Below the pieces are notes generated by a model. The model searched no databases. It saw only the letters and a program-made list of their open reading frames with translations, and was not told the DNA's origin. From NCBI GenBank assembly GCA_002728755.1, contig PBVT01000083.1, forward strand, positions 1 to 64,000: 64,000 nucleotides of DNA, written 5' to 3'. Source of the DNA: Myxococcales bacterium. GTDB taxonomy: Bacteria > Myxococcota_A > UBA9042 > UBA3505. How positions within the stretch are numbered: position 1 is the first letter of the stretch; the number at the start of each line of letters is the position of its first letter. This document shows positions 1 to 8,491 of this stretch, piece after piece. The translations under genes were made by a program, and so were the position numbers.

Positions 1-156
1 GAAGTGGCTCTCGGACCCTTCGGGAACGTTATGCATATAGCTTTCGTTGAGCACCTGCAGTTCGGCGGGGGCGAAGGCCTGGTCGAGCTTAGCCTGAATG
101 CGCTGCTGCACGGGTCCTGCGGGTCGTTCGGGTTGGTTGGCTTGGGGTGCGTCCAT
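1..156 (-). CDS. BolA family protein, N-terminal part (gene runs off the window start)
   Basis: The minus-strand frame from ATG at 156-154 is open for 52 codons to the first base of the window. It encodes a Pro/Gln-rich leader and then VQQRIQAKLDQAF and LNESYMHNVPEGSESHF. The second block matches the N-terminal half of the BolA fold, where a (D/N)ESxxH and GSESHF stretch is typical. BolA proteins pair with monothiol glutaredoxins and take part in Fe-S or stress regulation; that is family knowledge. An AAGGA ribosome site lies about 7 nt upstream of the ATG. The C-terminal half, including the metal-ligand loop, lies outside the window, so the subfamily cannot be named. Confidence 0.8.
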   Translation of the reverse strand, partial: MDAPQANQPERPAGPVQQRIQAKLDQAFAPAELQVLNESYMHNVPEGSESHF

Positions 157-296
157 GATGAATCCTTATACGCCGGTACGACGTGAAACTCCAGTATGAC
201 GGATCCAGCCTCCCTCCTCAATGGTGGTGTGAACATTTATGATTCACGGATTGCAGTGAGTCTGAAATAATCGCGACGTCTGAGGCCTTGCATCCC

Positions 297-2180
297 ATGT
301 ACGCACAGGAGACGGCCATTTCTTCCGAGAACCATAAAGAATGGGCAGAAGTCAGCCGACTGGGAGCGGCGGTGCACCGTCTCAAGATTCTTCGGCATCA
401 GCTCCTACGAAAGGTTCGCGATACCGGAACAATCCGTACCTGGTCCCAGAGTTCGAAAAGCAGCGACTGCGATCTGGCAGCAAATGTACAGGCACAGCTC
501 TGGTTTGAGGTGCCGAAAGAAGAATGGGTCTTAGAAGCCGGTAAGGTGGAAAATGTGCGCCTGGCCGCACAGAAACTGGATGGTCTGGAGATCCCTGCGA
601 ATGCGATCTTCTCCTTCTGGCATCATATTGGACGCCCCTCAGCCCAGGCCGGATTTGTTGTCGGCCGTGAGATACGGGCCGGCTGTGTGATCCCCACCAT
701 CGCTGGCGGACTCTGTCTTCTCAGCAACGCCCTATATAAGGCAGCCCTCGAAGCGGATCTTGAGATCGTCGAGCGACATGGTCATACCCAGCAGCTCTTT
801 ACCGATGCCTCCGATCCTGTGGACGCCACCGTCTTCTGGAACTACGTCGATCTCCGCTTTCGTTCCTCGAAACCGTGGCGTCTTGAGACCGAGATGACCG
901 ACACCCATCTCCACATTCGAATCCACCAGGCCGGCGCAAAAGATAAAAGAACGGCACCGAGCTCCCTACGACTGGCGGGGGCGTCAGTTCATGGGGTTCG
1001 AAGTTGTTATAGCTGCGATATCGATACCTGCCGCCACTCCCGTGTAGAGCCCGCCCTGGAGGCTCGTCGGGCGATCCTGTTGGACACCTATTGGCCCGAA
1101 TTCCAACGTTGGTTGCAGACCAACCTTCGTCCCAACGATCTTATATATATGCCCATTGATGGGTCTCGTCGCGGATTTTCACGCTATAGCTGGGACCTGG
1201 AGGGAGCCGAGATTGTCGAGTTCCCCCTCGCCTTCGGGCTCCGTGCGGCCACCGCAAGAGTCTATTCGAAGCAAGGGCCCGAGATGCGTGCAGCCCAGAT
1301 GCGTATGGACGCGTTCCTTGCGACCAGTATGGCCCGTATGCTGCCACCGACAGTCACCGAACTGATTGTAGGCCAACACCTCTTGCCCCATCTCCATAAG
1401 CAGGGAGCTTTAGGAGGACGAAAGGTGGAGGTCTTCGCCACCAGGCAGAGCCTGGCCCGAATTCAAGAACGCCTCGACCTGGCCAGCCAACAATGGCCGG
1501 ATCGGACCACTTTACGGGACTTCCGGGTAGACCCCGAACAGGTCGAACTGGAAGCCCAGGCTTTCGAAAGAGTACGACGCTTCCTGACCCCAAACCGCAG
1601 CATCGCTGCCGACTATGGGGCAAGGGCTACGTTGATCGATTGGGTACAGGATAATGAACTGCATCGTCTCCCATCGCGTAGGTCGGAGCGACCGGTGGTC
1701 CATTTGCCCGGCAGTACCGTAGCCCGACTGGGGGCCTGCGAATTACGAGAGGCCCTACGCGGACTCGACGTGACCCTCGAAGTCTCGGGTCGAAACCTGG
1801 AAGACGAGGAGTTCTGGGCAGGCTTTACGCAGCGACCATGCGGTGGGCTCGAAGAAGCCGACCTTGTGGTGTTACCTGCCTGGCTCCCACATAACCCTCG
1901 TCCCCTACTCCGAGCGGCCGCCCTGGGCATACCTGTGATCGTAAGCGATGTCTTCGGTCTCGGAGGTGTTCCCGGCGTTGTCGAGGTCCCTTGCGGCGAT
2001 GTGCATGCCCTCCGTACGGCGATTAAAGAGATACTATCCCTGCCATCAAGAACCGAACCGGGTTTTCCCACAGAAATTGTGAAAAACTTTGTGGAAAAGA
2101 TGTGTTTGACGGGGCCACCAGAGACATACCAATTCCCAACACAGCCCGGTTTTACTGGGGATGATCAATATCCAAGTTGA
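297..2180 (+). CDS. VanW-like domain protein with glycosyltransferase-like C-terminal region
   Basis: About 627 residues. Residues ~85-170 carry VanW-family hallmarks: NVRLAAQKLDGLEIP, FSFWHHIG, GFVVGREI, then GGLCLLSNALYKAALEA and VERHGHT, equivalent to the GGGiCQlSttLYNAAL and ERHxHS blocks of VanW proteins. The catalytic role of VanW domains is not settled; they occur in cell-envelope proteins. The last ~130 residues (ADLVVLPAW, ALGIPVIVSDVFGLGG, LRTAIKEIL) resemble the C-terminal nucleotide-sugar half of GT-B glycosyltransferases, which is inference. No signal peptide is visible. An in-frame TTG at 288 is an alternative start; neither start has a perfect ribosome site. The gene ends 8 nt before the predicted promoter of the large RNA. 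Confidence 0.7.
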   Translation: MYAQETAISSENHKEWAEVSRLGAAVHRLKILRHQLLRKVRDTGTIRTWSQSSKSSDCDLAANVQAQLWFEVPKEEWVLEAGKVENVRLAAQKLDGLEIPANAIFSFWHHIGRPSAQAGFVVGREIRAGCVIPTIAGGLCLLSNALYKAALEADLEIVERHGHTQQLFTDASDPVDATVFWNYVDLRFRSSKPWRLETEMTDTHLHIRIHQAGAKDKRTAPSSLRLAGASVHGVRSCYSCDIDTCRHSRVEPALEARRAILLDTYWPEFQRWLQTNLRPNDLIYMPIDGSRRGFSRYSWDLEGAEIVEFPLAFGLRAATARVYSKQGPEMRAAQMRMDAFLATSMARMLPPTVTELIVGQHLLPHLHKQGALGGRKVEVFATRQSLARIQERLDLASQQWPDRTTLRDFRVDPEQVELEAQAFERVRRFLTPNRSIAADYGARATLIDWVQDNELHRLPSRRSERPVVHLPGSTVARLGACELREALRGLDVTLEVSGRNLEDEEFWAGFTQRPCGGLEEADLVVLPAWLPHNPRPLLRAAALGIPVIVSDVFGLGGVPGVVEVPCGDVHALRTAIKEILSLPSRTEPGFPTEIVKNFVEKMCLTGPPETYQFPTQPGFTGDDQYPS

Positions 2181-2187
2181 ACACCGA

Positions 2188-2215
2188 TTGTCAGCCCGGC
2201 AAAGTCTGCTACAAC
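2188..2215 (+). promoter_or_regulatory. Predicted sigma70-type promoter of the large RNA
   Basis: TTGTCA (2188-2193) and TACAAC (2210-2215) are separated by 16 nt, matching the TTGACA/TATAAT consensus at 5 of 6 and 4 of 6 positions. A start 6-7 nt downstream would fall at 2221-2222. That is the first base of the strand that pairs with 3363-3376 to close the whole RNA, so the promoter and the folding independently point to the same 5' end. Confidence 0.45.
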
Positions 2216-2220
2216 CCTTA

Positions 2221-3415
2221 TTGGATGGTGCGAGGGCATCATTCACGGCTCTTTGAGAAGTGGATGAAATGCGACGAAAAGTCGGTTCGAGGCAACGCTA
2301 GCCGGCTCAGACCAAAACCCCCTCGGGGGTGGCGAGAGAGCAGCTGGAACGGCCCTACGAAATCGCAAGATTTCCGAAAGTCGGTTCGGTGGTTAGCGGG
2401 GTAACCCCAAGCGTGTTCCCGGTATGAAATAGGACCTTAACGCGGAATGGGAGGCAAGGCGCAAGGCGGGTGTGAAACCCGATAGGCCCGCGGATGTTCG
2501 CATCCTCAGGTCGATGTGCCAGGTACTGCGGAGTTGGAAACCCGCAGATAATCGACTCCGGTCATGGTTGTTTCGGCAACCTCGCCCGAAGTTGAACGTG
2601 GCCCATTCCGTGGCGGACGCGGAAGGGAACCTGAAAAGCTCGCGGAAGGTATGTTGGTATTTACAACGCACGATGGACACTTCGGTATCTACCGTGCAAA
2701 CCGGCACTTTGCTCAAAACCAGAACTTCGGTTCCGGCAGAGAGTAATAATCGGTCCCCAGGTCTCGCTTGCGAGATCTGGACGGTCGGAACCATCTCCAG
2801 GAATCTCCAAATCGAGTTTCTTTGAAACACGACGCGGCCCCGGAGATGTTAGCGGCTTCCAAAACTAAGCCACCTGGTTGGCTCGTTCAACCTGGTAGTT
2901 TGGCGCCGAAAGGCACACCGCGGTCGGTGAAGTTGTGAGTACTATACGAAAAGATATCTGAAGTCTTTGAAATCGATGCTAAGTGTAAGAGAGGGACCGT
3001 ATTCGTGATTCTTAGGAAGAGCGGTTACGGAGCCTGGTGTTAAAACCCTGAAGGGAACAGGGTCAGTGCAAAGTAGGTTGTTATCTTCGGACAACCAACC
3101 CACCAACACACTGAACCCAAGGACCTCGGTCCAAGGACCCTGGAAACCCAAGAGGGACGGTTCAAACCAGCAAGAACCAAGACACTAGGAAAACGGAGCT
3201 GATAGAAAGGATGGACCCCCTCCATTTCTATCTGGCGGGACTCTGAAACACCGGTTAACGGTTTGAGGTGCGGCTTCGATTTCTCCCAGTTGTTTCTTCG
3301 GAAATAACCGCGGAAATCGGAACCAGAAGATTTCTTTAGTCTTCGAGGAGCAGCCCGAACTTCTCGTATTGTCCAAATTGAGGCGGATTCTTCGCGGAGT
3401 CCGCCTCTTTTTTTT
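2221..3415 (+). ncRNA. Candidate giant structured noncoding RNA (about 1.2 kb), class not recognised
   Basis: No ORF here has a ribosome site or a recognisable protein, yet the DNA is dense in hairpins. A closing helix pairs 2221-2234 (UUGGAUGGUGCGAG) with 3363-3376 over 14 bp, four of them G-U. Long-range helices include 2302-2307/2342-2347, 2792-2798/2842-2848 (7 bp, perfect), 2997-3001/3026-3030, 3063-3068/3109-3114 and 3275-3283/3313-3321. Hairpins with stable loops include GCAA at 2359-2374, UUCG at 2492-2505, 2566-2581, 2722-2733 and 3289-3308, CUUG at 2757-2780 (10-bp stem), CUCG at 2317-2330 and 3121-3132, and a bulged 12-bp stem at 3201-3232. The RNA ends in a strong terminator. I saw no RNase P, tmRNA, SRP, rRNA or group II intron signatures. 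It could be a known giant class (OLE, GOLLD, ROOL) that I cannot recognise by eye, or a new one. Confidence 0.72.
3380..3415 (+). terminator. Intrinsic terminator of the large RNA
   Basis: GAGGCGGA (3380-3387) pairs with TCCGCCTC (3400-3407), extendable to 11 bp with one G-U. Eight T residues follow directly (3408-3415). It starts 4 nt after the closing helix of the RNA and ends 21 nt before the uvrD start, so it separates the RNA from the helicase gene. Confidence 0.88.
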
Positions 3416-3436
3416 ACCCTCTGTATACCAAGCCCC

Positions 3437-5446
3437 GTGACATCTCTAGACAAAATCATCGCCTCTTTGAACGACGCTCAAAGGGAAGCCGTTACCGCCC
3501 CAGGTGGTGCAACGCTGGTCTTGGCTGGTGCTGGATCTGGAAAGACCCGCGTCATCTCCGCCCGTGTGGCGTGGCATATCGCACAGGGGGTCCCGGTAAA
3601 CCAGATTACGGCCGTGACTTTCACCAATAAGGCCGCGCGCGAGATGTCCGCCCGTATTGGCGCTCTGGTCAAAGAGGTGCCCTTCGTCGGCACGTTTCAT
3701 CGCTTCGGTCTCACCGTTCTACGTCGCTATCGACGCCAACTGGGATACCATACCCACCCGAACATCATCGACCGCGGGGATCAGCTCGGCATTGTCCGGG
3801 AATCTCTAAAACAACTCGGCCTTCAACCCGCCTCCTGGGATGTGGGCGAAGCCCTATCTCTGATTCTCGAGGGACGAACCTGTAAGGCCATCGAAGGAAA
3901 GATCCGGTTTCCGCGTGCCCACGGTCTCGTCCCCATGGGAGTAGAGCTGGTAGAGGCCTATGAAAAGCGTCTTCGTACTCTCAACGCGGTGGACTTCGAC
4001 GAGTTGATTCTCGTTCCTCTGCGCCTCTTTCATAGCCACCCGAATCTCTTTTCACGGGTTCAAGCCGGTACCCGGTATATTCTGGTCGATGAGTTTCAAG
4101 ATACCAACCACGCCCAGATGGAGCTGGTTCGTAAATTGGTTGGCGAAGACGGAACGCTTATGGCCGTGGGGGACGACGACCAGTCCATCTATGCCTTCCG
4201 GGGTGCACGCGTCGAAAATATTCTACGATTCGCGGAGTCGTTCCCAGACTCCCAGACCATTCGCCTGGAAGACAATTATCGTTCGGCCAAACCGATTATT
4301 GAGTTGGCCAACGCCATCATCCGTAGCAACCCCGATCGTAACGACAAGACACTGCGGGTACGCTGCCCATTCACAGGAAGCACTCAGCTGGTGGGCGCAT
4401 CCAGCGAAGAAGCAGAGGCTGACTTTATCGCCCAGGGTGTCGCCGACGCCATTCGCTCGGGCACGTCTCCAAACGAGGTCGCGGTTCTCTATCGCGCCAA
4501 CCGACAAGCCAACGCCATTGAGCTCGCCTTAACACAGATCGCGATACCTTTTCGTCGCATCGGCGGCACATCCTTCTTCGAACGCAAAGAGGTGCGCGAT
4601 GCCCTGGGTTGGCTCGGCGTTCTGATCGATGGAAACGACGACTTATGTTTCCGACGAGCGGTCTTAGCACCAGCTCGAGGCGTGGGTGAAGTCTCTCTCA
4701 AAAATCTGGAACGAGGGGCGACCAAACAAAAGACATCGCTCTTTCGAACCGCCGAAAAGCTGGTCGATATCCCCGGAGCCCTTCCCAATCAGTCCATCTC
4801 CGGTCTGAAGGAGATGATTTCGGTTCTCAAAGAGGGCCGAAAAAAGCTCCGCTCTGCCGGTGTATCGAAAGCCTTTAAATTCGTTCTCCAGCAGGTGGGA
4901 TATCGAAAATATCTGATTCATAACGCCGAAACACCCGCCGAAGGTAGCCGTCGATTCCATCGAGTCATGCAGCTGGCAGATACCCTCGACAGCTACGTCC
5001 ATCGGGATCCGATCGAAGGTGCTAGAGCCTTTTTGGATGACGCACTGCTCTCCAACGCCAACGATGCCGTCGACGAAGACGAGGCCATGGTCTCCCTCAT
5101 GACTCTGCATGCTGCCAAGGGTCTCGAATTCGATTCGGTGTTCATCCCGGGCGTCGAGGAGGGGATCTTGCCCCATGAACGCTCCATCGGGAACGCCAGC
5201 GGTCTGGCAGAAGAATGTCGCCTTATGTACGTGGGTGTGACTCGAGCCAAGAAAGACCTGACGCTCTCCTATGTCCGGAAACGTCCACAAGGGGGCCCAG
5301 TGGGTGAAGAGCGCATCAGTCGTTTTCTACGAAACGTCGGTCTACGACCCAGGCTGGTCGGTGCGCCAGTTCAGGAGGGGCCCACAGAATCGGAAAAGAA
5401 GGCCATGCTAGAGATCGAGAAGTTGCAGGAGCTGCTCCGTTCCTAG
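3437..5446 (+). CDS. uvrD: UvrD/Rep/PcrA-type superfamily 1 DNA helicase
   Basis: 669 residues with the full SF1A set in order: GAGSGKT (residues 31-37), TFTNKAAREM (61-70), VDEFQDTN (217-224), GDDDQSIYAFRGA (245-257), LEDNYRS, TLHAAKGLEFDSVF and EECRLMYVGVTRAKK. Such proteins are 3'-5' ATP-dependent helicases of excision repair, mismatch repair and replication restart. It begins with GTG at 3437 with no clear ribosome site. The protein ends about 40 residues after motif VI and lacks the C-terminal Tudor-like RNA polymerase-binding domain of UvrD/PcrA; its length is closer to Rep. A Tudor-like segment appears instead on the ATPase at 7052-8491. Its stop codon overlaps that of the convergent helicase gene in the palindrome CTAG. 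Confidence 0.93.
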   Translation: MTSLDKIIASLNDAQREAVTAPGGATLVLAGAGSGKTRVISARVAWHIAQGVPVNQITAVTFTNKAAREMSARIGALVKEVPFVGTFHRFGLTVLRRYRRQLGYHTHPNIIDRGDQLGIVRESLKQLGLQPASWDVGEALSLILEGRTCKAIEGKIRFPRAHGLVPMGVELVEAYEKRLRTLNAVDFDELILVPLRLFHSHPNLFSRVQAGTRYILVDEFQDTNHAQMELVRKLVGEDGTLMAVGDDDQSIYAFRGARVENILRFAESFPDSQTIRLEDNYRSAKPIIELANAIIRSNPDRNDKTLRVRCPFTGSTQLVGASSEEAEADFIAQGVADAIRSGTSPNEVAVLYRANRQANAIELALTQIAIPFRRIGGTSFFERKEVRDALGWLGVLIDGNDDLCFRRAVLAPARGVGEVSLKNLERGATKQKTSLFRTAEKLVDIPGALPNQSISGLKEMISVLKEGRKKLRSAGVSKAFKFVLQQVGYRKYLIHNAETPAEGSRRFHRVMQLADTLDSYVHRDPIEGARAFLDDALLSNANDAVDEDEAMVSLMTLHAAKGLEFDSVFIPGVEEGILPHERSIGNASGLAEECRLMYVGVTRAKKDLTLSYVRKRPQGGPVGEERISRFLRNVGLRPRLVGAPVQEGPTESEKKAMLEIEKLQELLRS

Positions 5447-7065
5447 CTGGTTTCAAAGCCCGCCCGATATTCGAGGGGTAGGTAGCCATCCCATGGACCT
5501 TTCCCCCGCGATCGTCCCAGACCTTTTTGGGTTCCATCGCCCCCCGAATGGGGCACGACCATCACCTGATTCTTTTTTACGGATTGCACTTTCCAGCTAC
5601 GACCACCCAATACAAAGACACTCCCAGGTGTTCGGGGCGCAAAACCATTCCCGACCATCCGTCCCGTGGATGCGTCAAAGACCTGGGAACCAAGCGAGTC
5701 GGGGAGATTGGCGTGAACCGTCCCCCTGGTCCCCATATCCATAATGCGCGTCGTAGCCAAAAGCGTATCCCGCTCGCGGCGGATATGGCCCTCGGCAACA
5801 AGATGATCCACAACCCGTTTCAGATGTACTTGAGCCGTTAGACCGCGCAGCAGGTGAAGCAGCTCCTCTTCATCGACACCCGATGGACGCGAAAATAAGA
5901 TACTGAAAATCTGTTGAATCGCTACACCGGGATCCACTCGAACTCGAATGGCCTCCAGCTCTCCCCGATCGGCATAGAGGGCATGCAACTCCAGTTGGCG
6001 CTTACGTTCCTCCGTTTCGGCGACTCCCAATACTCGAATCACCGAGTCTCTTCGCGCTCCACGACCGATCCGCTGCTGAAACGCGCTGGGCGCCACCGGC
6101 ACTTCAAGCAGAGCCACCGCCTCGATCGATCCCACGTCGATTCCCAGCTCCAACGTACTCGTCGCCACACATAGCCAGGACGAAAAAGTCCGCATGGCCT
6201 CCTCTACCTCGTGCCGACTTCTTGCGCTCAGGCCGGCATGGTGCACGAGGACACGCCCACCGGGCATCAATTCCTGGAATTGGGCCGCGGCCTCTTCCAC
6301 CTTCGCGCGGGTCTCCGAAAAACATAGCACGCGGCGTAGCCGCTGTTCACGAAGAGCGGTCAACAGGCTCTCCAGATCGGGAACACATTGTAAAGTTGTC
6401 GCCCGGCGACCTTCCCCAACGATGACCTGCCCCTCACCGAGATACCGACGCACCACCGCATCGGGATCGGCAATCGTCGCCGATAATGCGACCCGTTGTA
6501 CCTCCCGTTCGCAGAGCCGATCAAGACGATGCAATAGGACCATCAGTTGATCACCACGCGGGTTCCCATGGACTGCGTGGATCTCGTCCAACACAACGGT
6601 CTGAACTGTTTTCAGAGCTCCAGGTGCCCGAGCCAGCAGAGAGTCCAGAGATTCCAGGGTCGTGACAAGCATGAACGGTGGTGGGTCTGGCGCGTTCGGG
6701 CTATCTCCGGTTCGTACCAGGACCTTGCGTTTGAATACCCCCAGCACTTCTTTCATTCGATCGCCCATATCACGGCATAAGGCGCGAGTGGGGGCCACAT
6801 ATAAGACGCGAAGGTTATCGTCCGACGGGGACATTCGGCGTTCCACGATGGGGGCCAGAGCGGCCTCCGTTTTTCCGGTCGCGGTCGGCGCCACGATCAA
6901 GGCATTCTCCCCCTTCAAGATGGGATGGCAGGCCGCCAACTGCAGAGCATTGGGCGCATTATGATGGGCAAAAAAGGCCAGATAACTTCGACGCAGCGCA
7001 CGTCGATAGGCGCGCATCTCCGAGATCAACTCGGGGCTCGGTCTCGTATCGTCAGAAGGAACCAC
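5443..7065 (-). CDS. Lhr/BrxHI-like DEAD/DEAH-box (superfamily 2) helicase
   Basis: 540 residues, GTG start. SF2 motifs: ATGKT (62-66), APTRAL (91-96), DEIH (160-163), SAT (195-197), STLELGIDVG (303-312) and QRIGRGARR (331-339). The DEIH box and the ELGIDVG/IGRGARR pairing are typical of Lhr-like helicases, and the protein is much shorter than canonical Lhr. It is the last gene of a four-gene operon: its start overlaps the end of the upstream ATPase gene by 14 nt. In type 2 BREX systems an Lhr-like helicase (BrxHI) accompanies a DUF2791 ATPase (BrxD), and the gene pair here is reminiscent of that. The substrate is unknown. Confidence 0.88.
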   Translation of the reverse strand: MVPSDDTRPSPELISEMRAYRRALRRSYLAFFAHHNAPNALQLAACHPILKGENALIVAPTATGKTEAALAPIVERRMSPSDDNLRVLYVAPTRALCRDMGDRMKEVLGVFKRKVLVRTGDSPNAPDPPPFMLVTTLESLDSLLARAPGALKTVQTVVLDEIHAVHGNPRGDQLMVLLHRLDRLCEREVQRVALSATIADPDAVVRRYLGEGQVIVGEGRRATTLQCVPDLESLLTALREQRLRRVLCFSETRAKVEEAAAQFQELMPGGRVLVHHAGLSARSRHEVEEAMRTFSSWLCVATSTLELGIDVGSIEAVALLEVPVAPSAFQQRIGRGARRDSVIRVLGVAETEERKRQLELHALYADRGELEAIRVRVDPGVAIQQIFSILFSRPSGVDEEELLHLLRGLTAQVHLKRVVDHLVAEGHIRRERDTLLATTRIMDMGTRGTVHANLPDSLGSQVFDASTGRMVGNGFAPRTPGSVFVLGGRSWKVQSVKKNQVMVVPHSGGDGTQKGLGRSRGKGPWDGYLPLEYRAGFETS

Positions 7066-8491
7066 CGGCGTACATCAATAAACTATCAGGGTGGCTCTCC
7101 GGATAAAACCGACGGTGGTCGAGTAGTTCCATAAAGCCTTTAATAAGATAACGGAAGGAGTGGCCGTGGGTGGCGATCAATGTTTCGGCCGCCTGACGAA
7201 GATCGGGTTGTACTGGGCCGATAGCACAGACCTTCTTGTAGGCATCCAATAAGCGATCAAAGAGCCGAAGAACTTCCTCGCGGGTTGGCGTATCGAGCCG
7301 CACCAGATTATCCGTATGTACATGCTGGAAAAACCGCGTGTAGCCAGGTGTAAAGGCAAATACGACCTTAAAGCGGCAAGGGATCTGGTAGATGTACGGA
7401 ACCTTTAAGAAGCCGGAATACACCAGGCCCGAACGCTCTCCACGAAAGCAATCGAGGCGCTCGATCACCTCATTCTCCAGGACGTCGTCGTCGTCCGCGA
7501 CCCAGGCCAGACCGTTGAAGAAGTTTACGCCTCGTTGCCATTCGTAACGGTAGCGGTAGGTGCGACTCATCTCGGCTTCGTCGATCAAAAGGATCATCCC
7601 CTGCAAACCGAGAGCCTCGGTCAACCATACCGACAGGCCAGATAATAGATAACAATATACATTCGCCGACGTCGTATGATCGGGAAGATTCGGCAAGCCC
7701 GGGAGCTTACGGCGAATGGGCCGTCCCCGCAGATAGGCTAGAATGGCGGGTCGTAGCTTCGGCCGGTTGCGCCAGAGATCGGAGATAACCGACCAGATGC
7801 TATGGTCACGAATGGCCTCATCGCTGCGGCCACATAGACGTTCGAGGATCTGCTCAAGCCCCAACACCTCACCATCTATGGGTACACGCAAACTGGTGAT
7901 CGCGTGTCGATACACCCGCTTGGGAAAACCAGCCGGTGCATCCGATGGATCAATACCCACATTGCAGACGGCCCAACCACGGTCGAGGGCCTGCACCTTC
8001 AGCACAGCCATCGTATGGCTTTTGCCACTACCATAGGCACCTTCCACCACGAGAGAGCCGCTCGCGGGATCATCCAGCCAACCCAAAACACGTTTGAGCT
8101 CGTCGCGACGACCCACTGTCCATTCCATAATGGAATGCTCAGGAACGATTCCAAGACGAAAGGCTTCAAACGCCAATCGGATATCTCGGAACTCGGGCTT
8201 GCCATTCAGAGGTGCAACGCGTGAAGGCAGCACCGATGGCGCTATCTTCTTTTTGCTCTTGCCCTCGTACACTCGACCCATGATCCGGTCGATGATCTCT
8301 TCGGATTCCAATAGCGCGGTGTTCTCAGGCTGTGGCGGTAGGGCCCCCGGACTGCGCACCTGATCCGCCCGGAGCCAGAGTCGTAACTGGCAATCGAAAT
8401 CCACCATGATCTCGTAGCCTGCTTTCCGTACGGCATGAACTAGACCGCGCCCATAGCGTGGGTGTCGAACGACCTGTCCCACTTCCATCAT
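7052..8491 (-). CDS. BREX-type (DUF2791/BrxD-like) P-loop ATPase with N-terminal Tudor-like domain
   Basis: 479 residues. Walker A is GAYGSGKS (151-158), followed by a conserved HTMAVLKVQAL helix; Walker B is IDEAE (303-307). P-loop flanks of this type, with YRHAITSL after the first sheet, resemble the DUF2791 ATP-binding proteins of BREX systems. Residues 1-45 (VGQVVRHPRYGRGLV, then a hydrophobic strand pattern) closely resemble the C-terminal Tudor-like domain of UvrD/PcrA, which binds RNA polymerase. The start codon overlaps the stop of the upstream ATPase gene as ATGA, so translation is probably coupled. Family assignment is by eye and could shift to a related AAA family. Confidence 0.68.
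   Translation of the reverse strand: MMEVGQVVRHPRYGRGLVHAVRKAGYEIMVDFDCQLRLWLRADQVRSPGALPPQPENTALLESEEIIDRIMGRVYEGKSKKKIAPSVLPSRVAPLNGKPEFRDIRLAFEAFRLGIVPEHSIMEWTVGRRDELKRVLGWLDDPASGSLVVEGAYGSGKSHTMAVLKVQALDRGWAVCNVGIDPSDAPAGFPKRVYRHAITSLRVPIDGEVLGLEQILERLCGRSDEAIRDHSIWSVISDLWRNRPKLRPAILAYLRGRPIRRKLPGLPNLPDHTTSANVYCYLLSGLSVWLTEALGLQGMILLIDEAEMSRTYRYRYEWQRGVNFFNGLAWVADDDDVLENEVIERLDCFRGERSGLVYSGFLKVPYIYQIPCRFKVVFAFTPGYTRFFQHVHTDNLVRLDTPTREEVLRLFDRLLDAYKKVCAIGPVQPDLRQAAETLIATHGHSFRYLIKGFMELLDHRRFYPESHPDSLLMYAGGSF

Follow-up and report, generated by a model that had tools for sequence, protein, structure and literature searches.

Few bacterial RNAs of very large size and complex structure are known, and the functions of most are open. 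The OLE, GOLLD and ROOL RNAs are very large, covarying and noncoding, with poorly understood functions; all three form homo-oligomers, and the genes for GOLLD and ROOL lie in phages or prophages, in many cases close to tRNA islands (PMC12286853). The raiA-motif and HEARO RNAs are likewise structured bacterial noncoding RNAs outside rRNA, and are given there as only 205 and 343 nt long (PMC12286853). A further system for comparison is the rRNA transcription unit, with boxA near its start and a leader-trailer helix which closes its product. In two papers (PMC10250234, PMC5725501), boxA is described as the site that recruits NusB/S10, with a key role in the rRNA antitermination complex, and E. 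coli is described as unable to form active 30S without the leader-trailer helix.

The DNA analysed here, hereafter called the window, is a stretch of 64,000 nt from a Myxococcales bacterium (contig PBVT01000083.1). It very likely contains, at approximately 2120-3415, the gene for a giant, structured and independently transcribed noncoding RNA outside Rfam, the transcription and function of which are untested. Judged by sequence comparison alone, the RNA almost certainly represents a real new structured class, which adds to the few large bacterial RNAs one laid out like an rRNA gene. The sequences show dispersed, diverged copies, homologs in four phylum groups, a covarying fold, boxA in many members, a closing helix and a terminator. 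The boxA/leader-trailer layout is a feature of the new class which distinguishes it from OLE, GOLLD and ROOL. Unlike rRNA units, the new RNA has no rRNA model match inside, and it consists of one RNA whose own terminator follows closely on the closing helix.

The region 2221-3415 is flanked by a gene for a VanW-domain protein (288-2180, +) and a uvrD-type helicase gene (3437-5446, +), and all features of the RNA gene are on the plus strand. An upstream element, TGTGGAAAAGATGTG (2090-2104), is common to the copies of the source genome. The promoter and 5' leader are presumed to occupy 2105-2220, inferred from the position between this element and the closing helix; a consensus promoter scan of the plus strand of 2105-2220 recognised nothing. 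The closing (leader-trailer) helix P1 is formed by 2221-2234 and 3363-3376, with 14 bp, or 16 pairs once a G-U extension is allowed. A boxA (GCUCUUUGA, 2248-2256), invariant in the window copy (A) and its paralogs B and C, lies just inside this helix in a hairpin (2241-2265). The conserved core domain (2403-2627) includes two outer strands (within 2403-2413 and 2618-2627) and a long helix (2443-2451 with 2602-2610), placed by eye from the helices of the homologs, and two hairpins (2421-2436 and 2467-2481), located by string search. It is followed by a variable middle domain (2640-2950), longer than in B and C and poorly alignable among the three paralogs, the energy-predicted helices of which are without comparative support. 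The 3' domain (2981-3251), defined by alignment and fold of A, B and C, contains a recurrent module with a 3x3 internal loop, in which GUGU (2983-2986) pairs with ACAC (3248-3251) and AGAG (2990-2993) with CUCU (3241-3244), around the loop AAG/GAA. In the alignment of the three copies this domain has 90 pairs, 25 with a change on both sides; for example, GUGU:ACAC of the window copy is replaced by GUGC:GCAC in paralog B. The 3' half of the window copy was compared with these two paralogs only. An intrinsic terminator (3380-3415, comprising 3380-3407 plus a T run) ends the gene, and GGCGGA...TCCGCC plus a T run likewise ends B and C.

The segment 2221-3376 had a minimum free energy of -450.9, compared with -394.0 ± 9.8 for 40 dinucleotide shuffles (z -5.83), none of which was as low. 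Nine control segments of equal length from the window (16 shuffles each) had z values of -1.75 to +1.02, one of them likewise with 0/16 shuffles as low, and for the region's own minus strand z was -4.05. Chance folding of the region was ruled out by the z value against shuffles together with the control segments. Paralog B folded with z -6.72 (20 shuffles). The preliminary description of this locus had proposed a closed structure whose ends pair over 14 bp; the positions given for this pairing were exact, and it closes the energy-based fold. Its left edge, 2221, needs correction, the transcript probably starting further upstream, at a site that is undetermined.

The source genome (4.14 Mb in 133 contigs) was found by blastn to contain two more diverged copies, B on contig C94 and C on contig C48. 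The copies A, B and C have in common a start region, CNGCTCTTTGAGAAGTG, which was absent elsewhere in the genome even at one mismatch, several internal blocks and the GGCGGA...TCCGCC terminator. Both paralogs have equivalents of the 14-bp closing helix (14-16 bp in A, B and C), with bases changed on both sides. A 91-column covariance model built from the three copies (R1) found a fourth, shorter copy, D, on contig C73 (E 2.9e-14), as well as weaker matches in other genomes. Copy D (L032) measures about 0.5 kb by eye and has kept boxA, core and terminator; no 3' domain or closing helix was detectable in it. The 4.1-Mb genome contains the upstream pattern TGTGGRAAANNTGTG at five places, before A, B, C, D and a further copy, E; the reversed control pattern was absent. 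Copy E is cut, its contig ending inside boxA. Its final 162 bases, covering promoter and leader, are identical to C at 157 positions, and the DNA further upstream is unrelated. Contig C48 ends at the terminator of copy C, and two contigs of the source genome, C48 (end L007) and C54 (end L166), break at the RNA gene. It is inferred from the contig breaks that the assembly collapsed C and E as near-identical repeats; at least five copies are present, and the copy number is probably underestimated. The TGTGGAAAA-type upstream element, which may also be termed DnaA-box-like or a phased A-tract, resembles DnaA boxes (TTATCCACA), and similar strings precede the homologs G008a, G119, G366 and two from Gemmatimonadetes. 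A role as DnaA-regulated site or UP element is a possibility only.

When 52 genomes (the source genome and others of its class) were searched by blastn, the only match outside the source genome was one of 28 nt, in G039, on a different contig from that genome's later model match, so a covariance model was needed to find homologs. A degenerate exact pattern of the core, scanned over GTDB genome contigs, gave 17 stretches, of which 12 carried the core by eye and five (L049, L050, L051, L056, L059) were judged to be chance. Five of the core-bearing stretches were from Myxococcales/Deltaproteobacteria metagenome-assembled genomes (MAGs) and were all R1 matches already (L048, L055, L057, L060, L062), four were from Gemmatimonadetes MAGs (L046, L047, L052, L054) and two from Riflebacteria (L058, and L053 in genome G380 of the same phylum); L061 was a further one. 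For a second covariance model (R3), 18 homologs were used and all sequences of the source genome excluded; its members had originally been found with R1 or with the pattern derived from R1 matches. R3 found four copies of the source genome, that of the window at 2403-2538 (E 2.4e-5) and the others with E-values of 9.1e-7 to 1.3e-4; the match in the window copy stops at 2538 because of a longer insert in this copy.

In Myxococcota, the phylum of the window, 66 of 377 genomes (37 of 235 better genomes) reached E ≤ 0.01 with R3, representing 46 of 234 genera, and each positive genome had one to six matches. Positive genomes made up 28 of 39 in the Riflebacteria phylum, two of 249 in Gemmatimonadota (including the query's own genome) and one of eight in the phylum of L061, namely L061's own genome. 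The R3 E-values are rough and per genome, and the weakest best matches were 0.0016 (G232) and 0.00258 and 0.0058 (two Riflebacteria), so that a few of the weakest positive genomes may be chance. All named carriers are MAGs, for which binning errors are possible in single cases. Of four R1 matches omitted from the alignments A6 and A7, R3 confirmed G051 and G319, not G033 or G076; these alignments also omit the copies of the source genome and the truncated L046 and L054.

Paired covariation, which the preliminary description had proposed to look for in homologs, was present and very strong. The core of the 18 homologs, none from the source genome, has 39 pairs in seven helices, 33 of which changed on both sides. 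Pairing was possible in 94.4 % of cells, compared with 35.8-46.0 % when the structure was slid along the alignment, and the covariation score was 0.735 compared with 0.10-0.14; none of 500 shuffles was as high in any of five measures. Full-length RNAs of Riflebacteria (approximately 1.05 kb) were aligned for 20 of 23 loci (A8), omitting Rif649, Rif666 and Rif648, the 5' ends of which are laid out differently. These 20 RNAs have pairwise identities of 52-97 % (median 62 %) and a consensus of 269 pairs, 190 with both-sided change; 94.8 % of cells were paired, compared with 35.7-42.4 % slid, and covariation was 0.52 compared with 0.09-0.13. Each structure was tested on the alignment from which it had been predicted, giving some bias in its favour relative to the slid controls. 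The alignments of the class are already deep enough for structure work.

No evidence of coding was found. The three longest inner ORFs of the window copy (2472-2825 +, 2393-2830 - and 3040-3459 -), the only ones scanned, shorter ones being left out, had no match among Pfam or NCBIfam models. Stop codons interrupt every frame of both strands in all 20 Riflebacteria RNAs (at least six on the plus and at least two on the minus strand), and 745 of the 842 gaps in their alignment are not multiples of three. In 22 of 57 loci the core is overlapped by mechanically predicted ORFs of at least 150 amino acids, antisense in 20 of these loci, and such ORFs are similar between related loci; we infer that the antisense ORFs are the expected outcome of conserved DNA poor in antisense stops. 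A protein gene was rejected, since the three longest ORFs belong to no family, the frames are not open and the gaps are not in threes.

Rfam 15 was searched with cmscan at gathering score against the window and 15 homolog-bearing loci, with no match in any of them, including none to OLE, GOLLD, ROOL or SSU/LSU rRNA models, and a known RNA family was rejected on this basis. The 4227 models used presumably included the OLE, GOLLD and ROOL families. At E ≤ 10, the region 2221-3415 gave six weak matches, the best (E 0.27) over the terminator; at E ≤ 1, six of the homolog loci gave Thr_leader (0.035 and 0.12) and Clostridiales-1 (0.58), all under gathering score. No such class was named in the open-licence PubMed Central literature, among the matches listed, nor was a paper found there on boxA together with ROOL. 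A word search of the main text of discovery papers gave one passage on 'large ncRNAs' and no myxobacterial match. 'Large ornate RNA' is a descriptive group; the class is rated as new since the models of known families do not match it, and its function is open. The preliminary description had inferred a large structured noncoding RNA without a known class, which a match to a known protein gene would have refuted. That inference is supported by the covariation and by the lack of Rfam matches at gathering score in the window and of protein-family matches for the three longest inner ORFs. The same-genome paralogs, the rRNA-like layout of boxA and leader-trailer helix and the spread across phyla go beyond it.

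In Riflebacteria, a promoter-like string (TTGACN-15..19-TANNNT) precedes the RNA in 19 of the 20 aligned loci and is followed by a boxA of type NATCTTTGANAAT, in most about 600 nt 5' of the core, after which the closing helix begins with its 5' strand. This helix (alignment columns 91-100 with 1181-1190, near the 3' end) has both-sided changes in seven of its ten pairs; apart from Riflebacteria, the leader-trailer helix was looked at in the source-genome copies and in no other Myxococcota. Of 57 loci, 13 had a perfect GYTCTTTGANAN 5' of the core, including four loci of the source genome (shuffled controls: mean 0.2, maximum 1 in 20 rounds; reversed 0; complementary 0), and 31 had it with at most one mismatch, some at other positions (shuffled 2.75; reversed 3; complementary 1). 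The 57 loci are related to each other and the counts are thus not independent. Even at one mismatch, boxA was not found in several Myxococcota or in three Gemmatimonadota loci, and it is not universal in the class. Ten carriers were searched for 16S, of which two were positive (G005 and G653) and eight, the source genome (G000) among them, negative. In the rrn operon of G005, GCTCCTTGAAAACTGG lies 98 nt ahead of 16S and GTTCTTTGAAGACTGG behind it in the spacer, and the boxA-type string of its RNA, GGTTCTTTGAAACT, 560 nt before the core, resembles these. The rrn operon of G653 has GATATTTGAGAAT 178 nt before 16S, followed directly by a strand pairing with the trailer behind 16S; its RNA has the boxA GATCATTGACAAT, with only 10 of 13 bases alike. 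A likeness of the RNA boxA to the genome's own rrn boxA was thus seen in both carriers that allowed the comparison. By inference, the RNAs of the class use the same boxA/NusB/S10 machinery as rRNA; NusB/S10 binding and antitermination are not shown. A boxA-assisted, rRNA-like biogenesis of the RNA is considered probable, in the absence of transcript evidence, and raises the testable question of why rRNA antitermination would act on a non-ribosomal RNA.

Within the molecule, the Riflebacteria consensus contains nine 3x3 internal loops, six clearly of ANG/GNA type, one mixed and two not of this type; the module also occurs in the window copy, at 2983-2993/3241-3251. Six Riflebacteria genomes have a second, weaker core match about 430 nt upstream (E 2.9e-5 to 8.6e-4), and G214 has one about 250 nt downstream (E 2.0e-6), from which we infer that part of the architecture may have arisen through internal duplication. 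A simple pseudoknot scan gave 387 short helices compared with 406 in the parallel control, none above control, so tertiary or oligomer contacts are without covariation support.

The surroundings of the homologs bear on whether the RNA acts on a neighbouring gene. The homologs sit between varying genes (mechanical ORFs), with the downstream gene also found on the opposite strand, and when 330 flanking ORFs were compared all against all, no family was shared by the loci as a whole. The biggest neighbour clusters covered eight and five loci, all from Riflebacteria. Loci of more than one group were joined in two clusters, one of repeat proteins (G258 and six Riflebacteria loci) and one kinase-like (copy C, G008b, Rif640 and Rif641), at varying distances and orientations and with family names assigned by eye. 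As there is no common neighbour gene, the RNA is probably an independent gene acting in trans. A leader or attenuator that controls the downstream gene in cis would fit the start of uvrD about 20 nt 3' of the terminator on the same strand; this reading is hardly tenable, as the terminator precedes uvrD, the structure closes on itself and homologs precede different genes, some in opposite orientation, and a leader of uvrD was ruled out by these varying neighbours. Nearly as improbable is a decayed rRNA, intron or protein gene, for which the resemblance of the boxA and leader-trailer layout to rrn operons and the existence of long antisense ORFs could be cited. It is opposed by the lack of any rRNA or intron among the weak Rfam matches (window region at E ≤ 10, six homolog loci at E ≤ 1), by the coding evidence given above (no family for the three longest inner ORFs, closed frames, gaps not in threes) and by the strong selection on the fold.

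An RNA nanocage of the ROOL/GOLLD kind, borne by phages or mobile elements and spread with mobile DNA, would account for the size, the ornate fold and the several dispersed copies, for the scarcity of carriers in Gemmatimonadota and the small phylum that includes G382, and for copy E sharing promoter and leader with C but not the upstream DNA. It is regarded as improbable: ROOL and GOLLD models gave no match, and 28 of 39 Riflebacteria genomes were positive, suggesting a chromosomal gene. A blastn comparison of the window copy with phages and plasmids and four exact-pattern scans of viral contigs were also without match, both being insensitive to diverged members. ARAGORN found no tRNA in the window. 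CsrB is a sponge for CsrA, and a sponge that captures a single RNA-binding protein in many copies through its repeated modules would be consistent with the nine 3x3 loops and the predominance of one loop type. Somewhat less improbable than mobile spread, it remains unlikely, because the repeats are internal loops within a long-range covarying architecture, which is more conserved than a sponge seems to need.

The preferred reading, an independently transcribed giant RNA made in the manner of rRNA, would involve the following steps, all of them inferred. A sigma-70-like promoter would start the transcript, and boxA would load NusB/S10 on the polymerase, allowing at least 1 kb of untranslated, heavily folding RNA to escape Rho termination as it is made. 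Pairing of the two ends would form the leader-trailer helix, possibly trimmed by RNase III, and keep the molecule closed, and the terminator would end the transcript. The RNA would not be the leader of a neighbouring gene; it would act in trans in the form of a compact and stable particle, consisting of the RNA alone, of an oligomer or of RNA with proteins, and made up of repeated 3x3-loop modules and the core domain, partly duplicated in some members. The existence of such a stable trans-acting particle, suggested by analogy with the homo-oligomers of OLE, ROOL and GOLLD, is about evenly balanced, and no result shows a particle. More tentative, and rather doubtful as a whole, is the proposal that this cross-phylum giant RNA, present in most Riflebacteria genomes and made with the rRNA machinery, forms a large particle, of RNA or RNP, that serves a housekeeping function, as a third large rRNA-like molecule.

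Two further observations concern the genes around the locus. The protein encoded by 288-2180 (+) has, besides the VanW domain (E 2e-29), a C-terminal glycosyltransferase-like stretch just under the Pfam cut-off. Beside uvrD lies a BrxHI-like helicase gene (5443-7065, -; PADLOC E 6e-72), which adjoins a gene for a weakly BrxD-like ATPase (7052-8491, -; E 6e-12, under the NCBIfam cut-off), and 5443-8491 (-) is possibly a two-gene BREX-like or SngBC-like pair.
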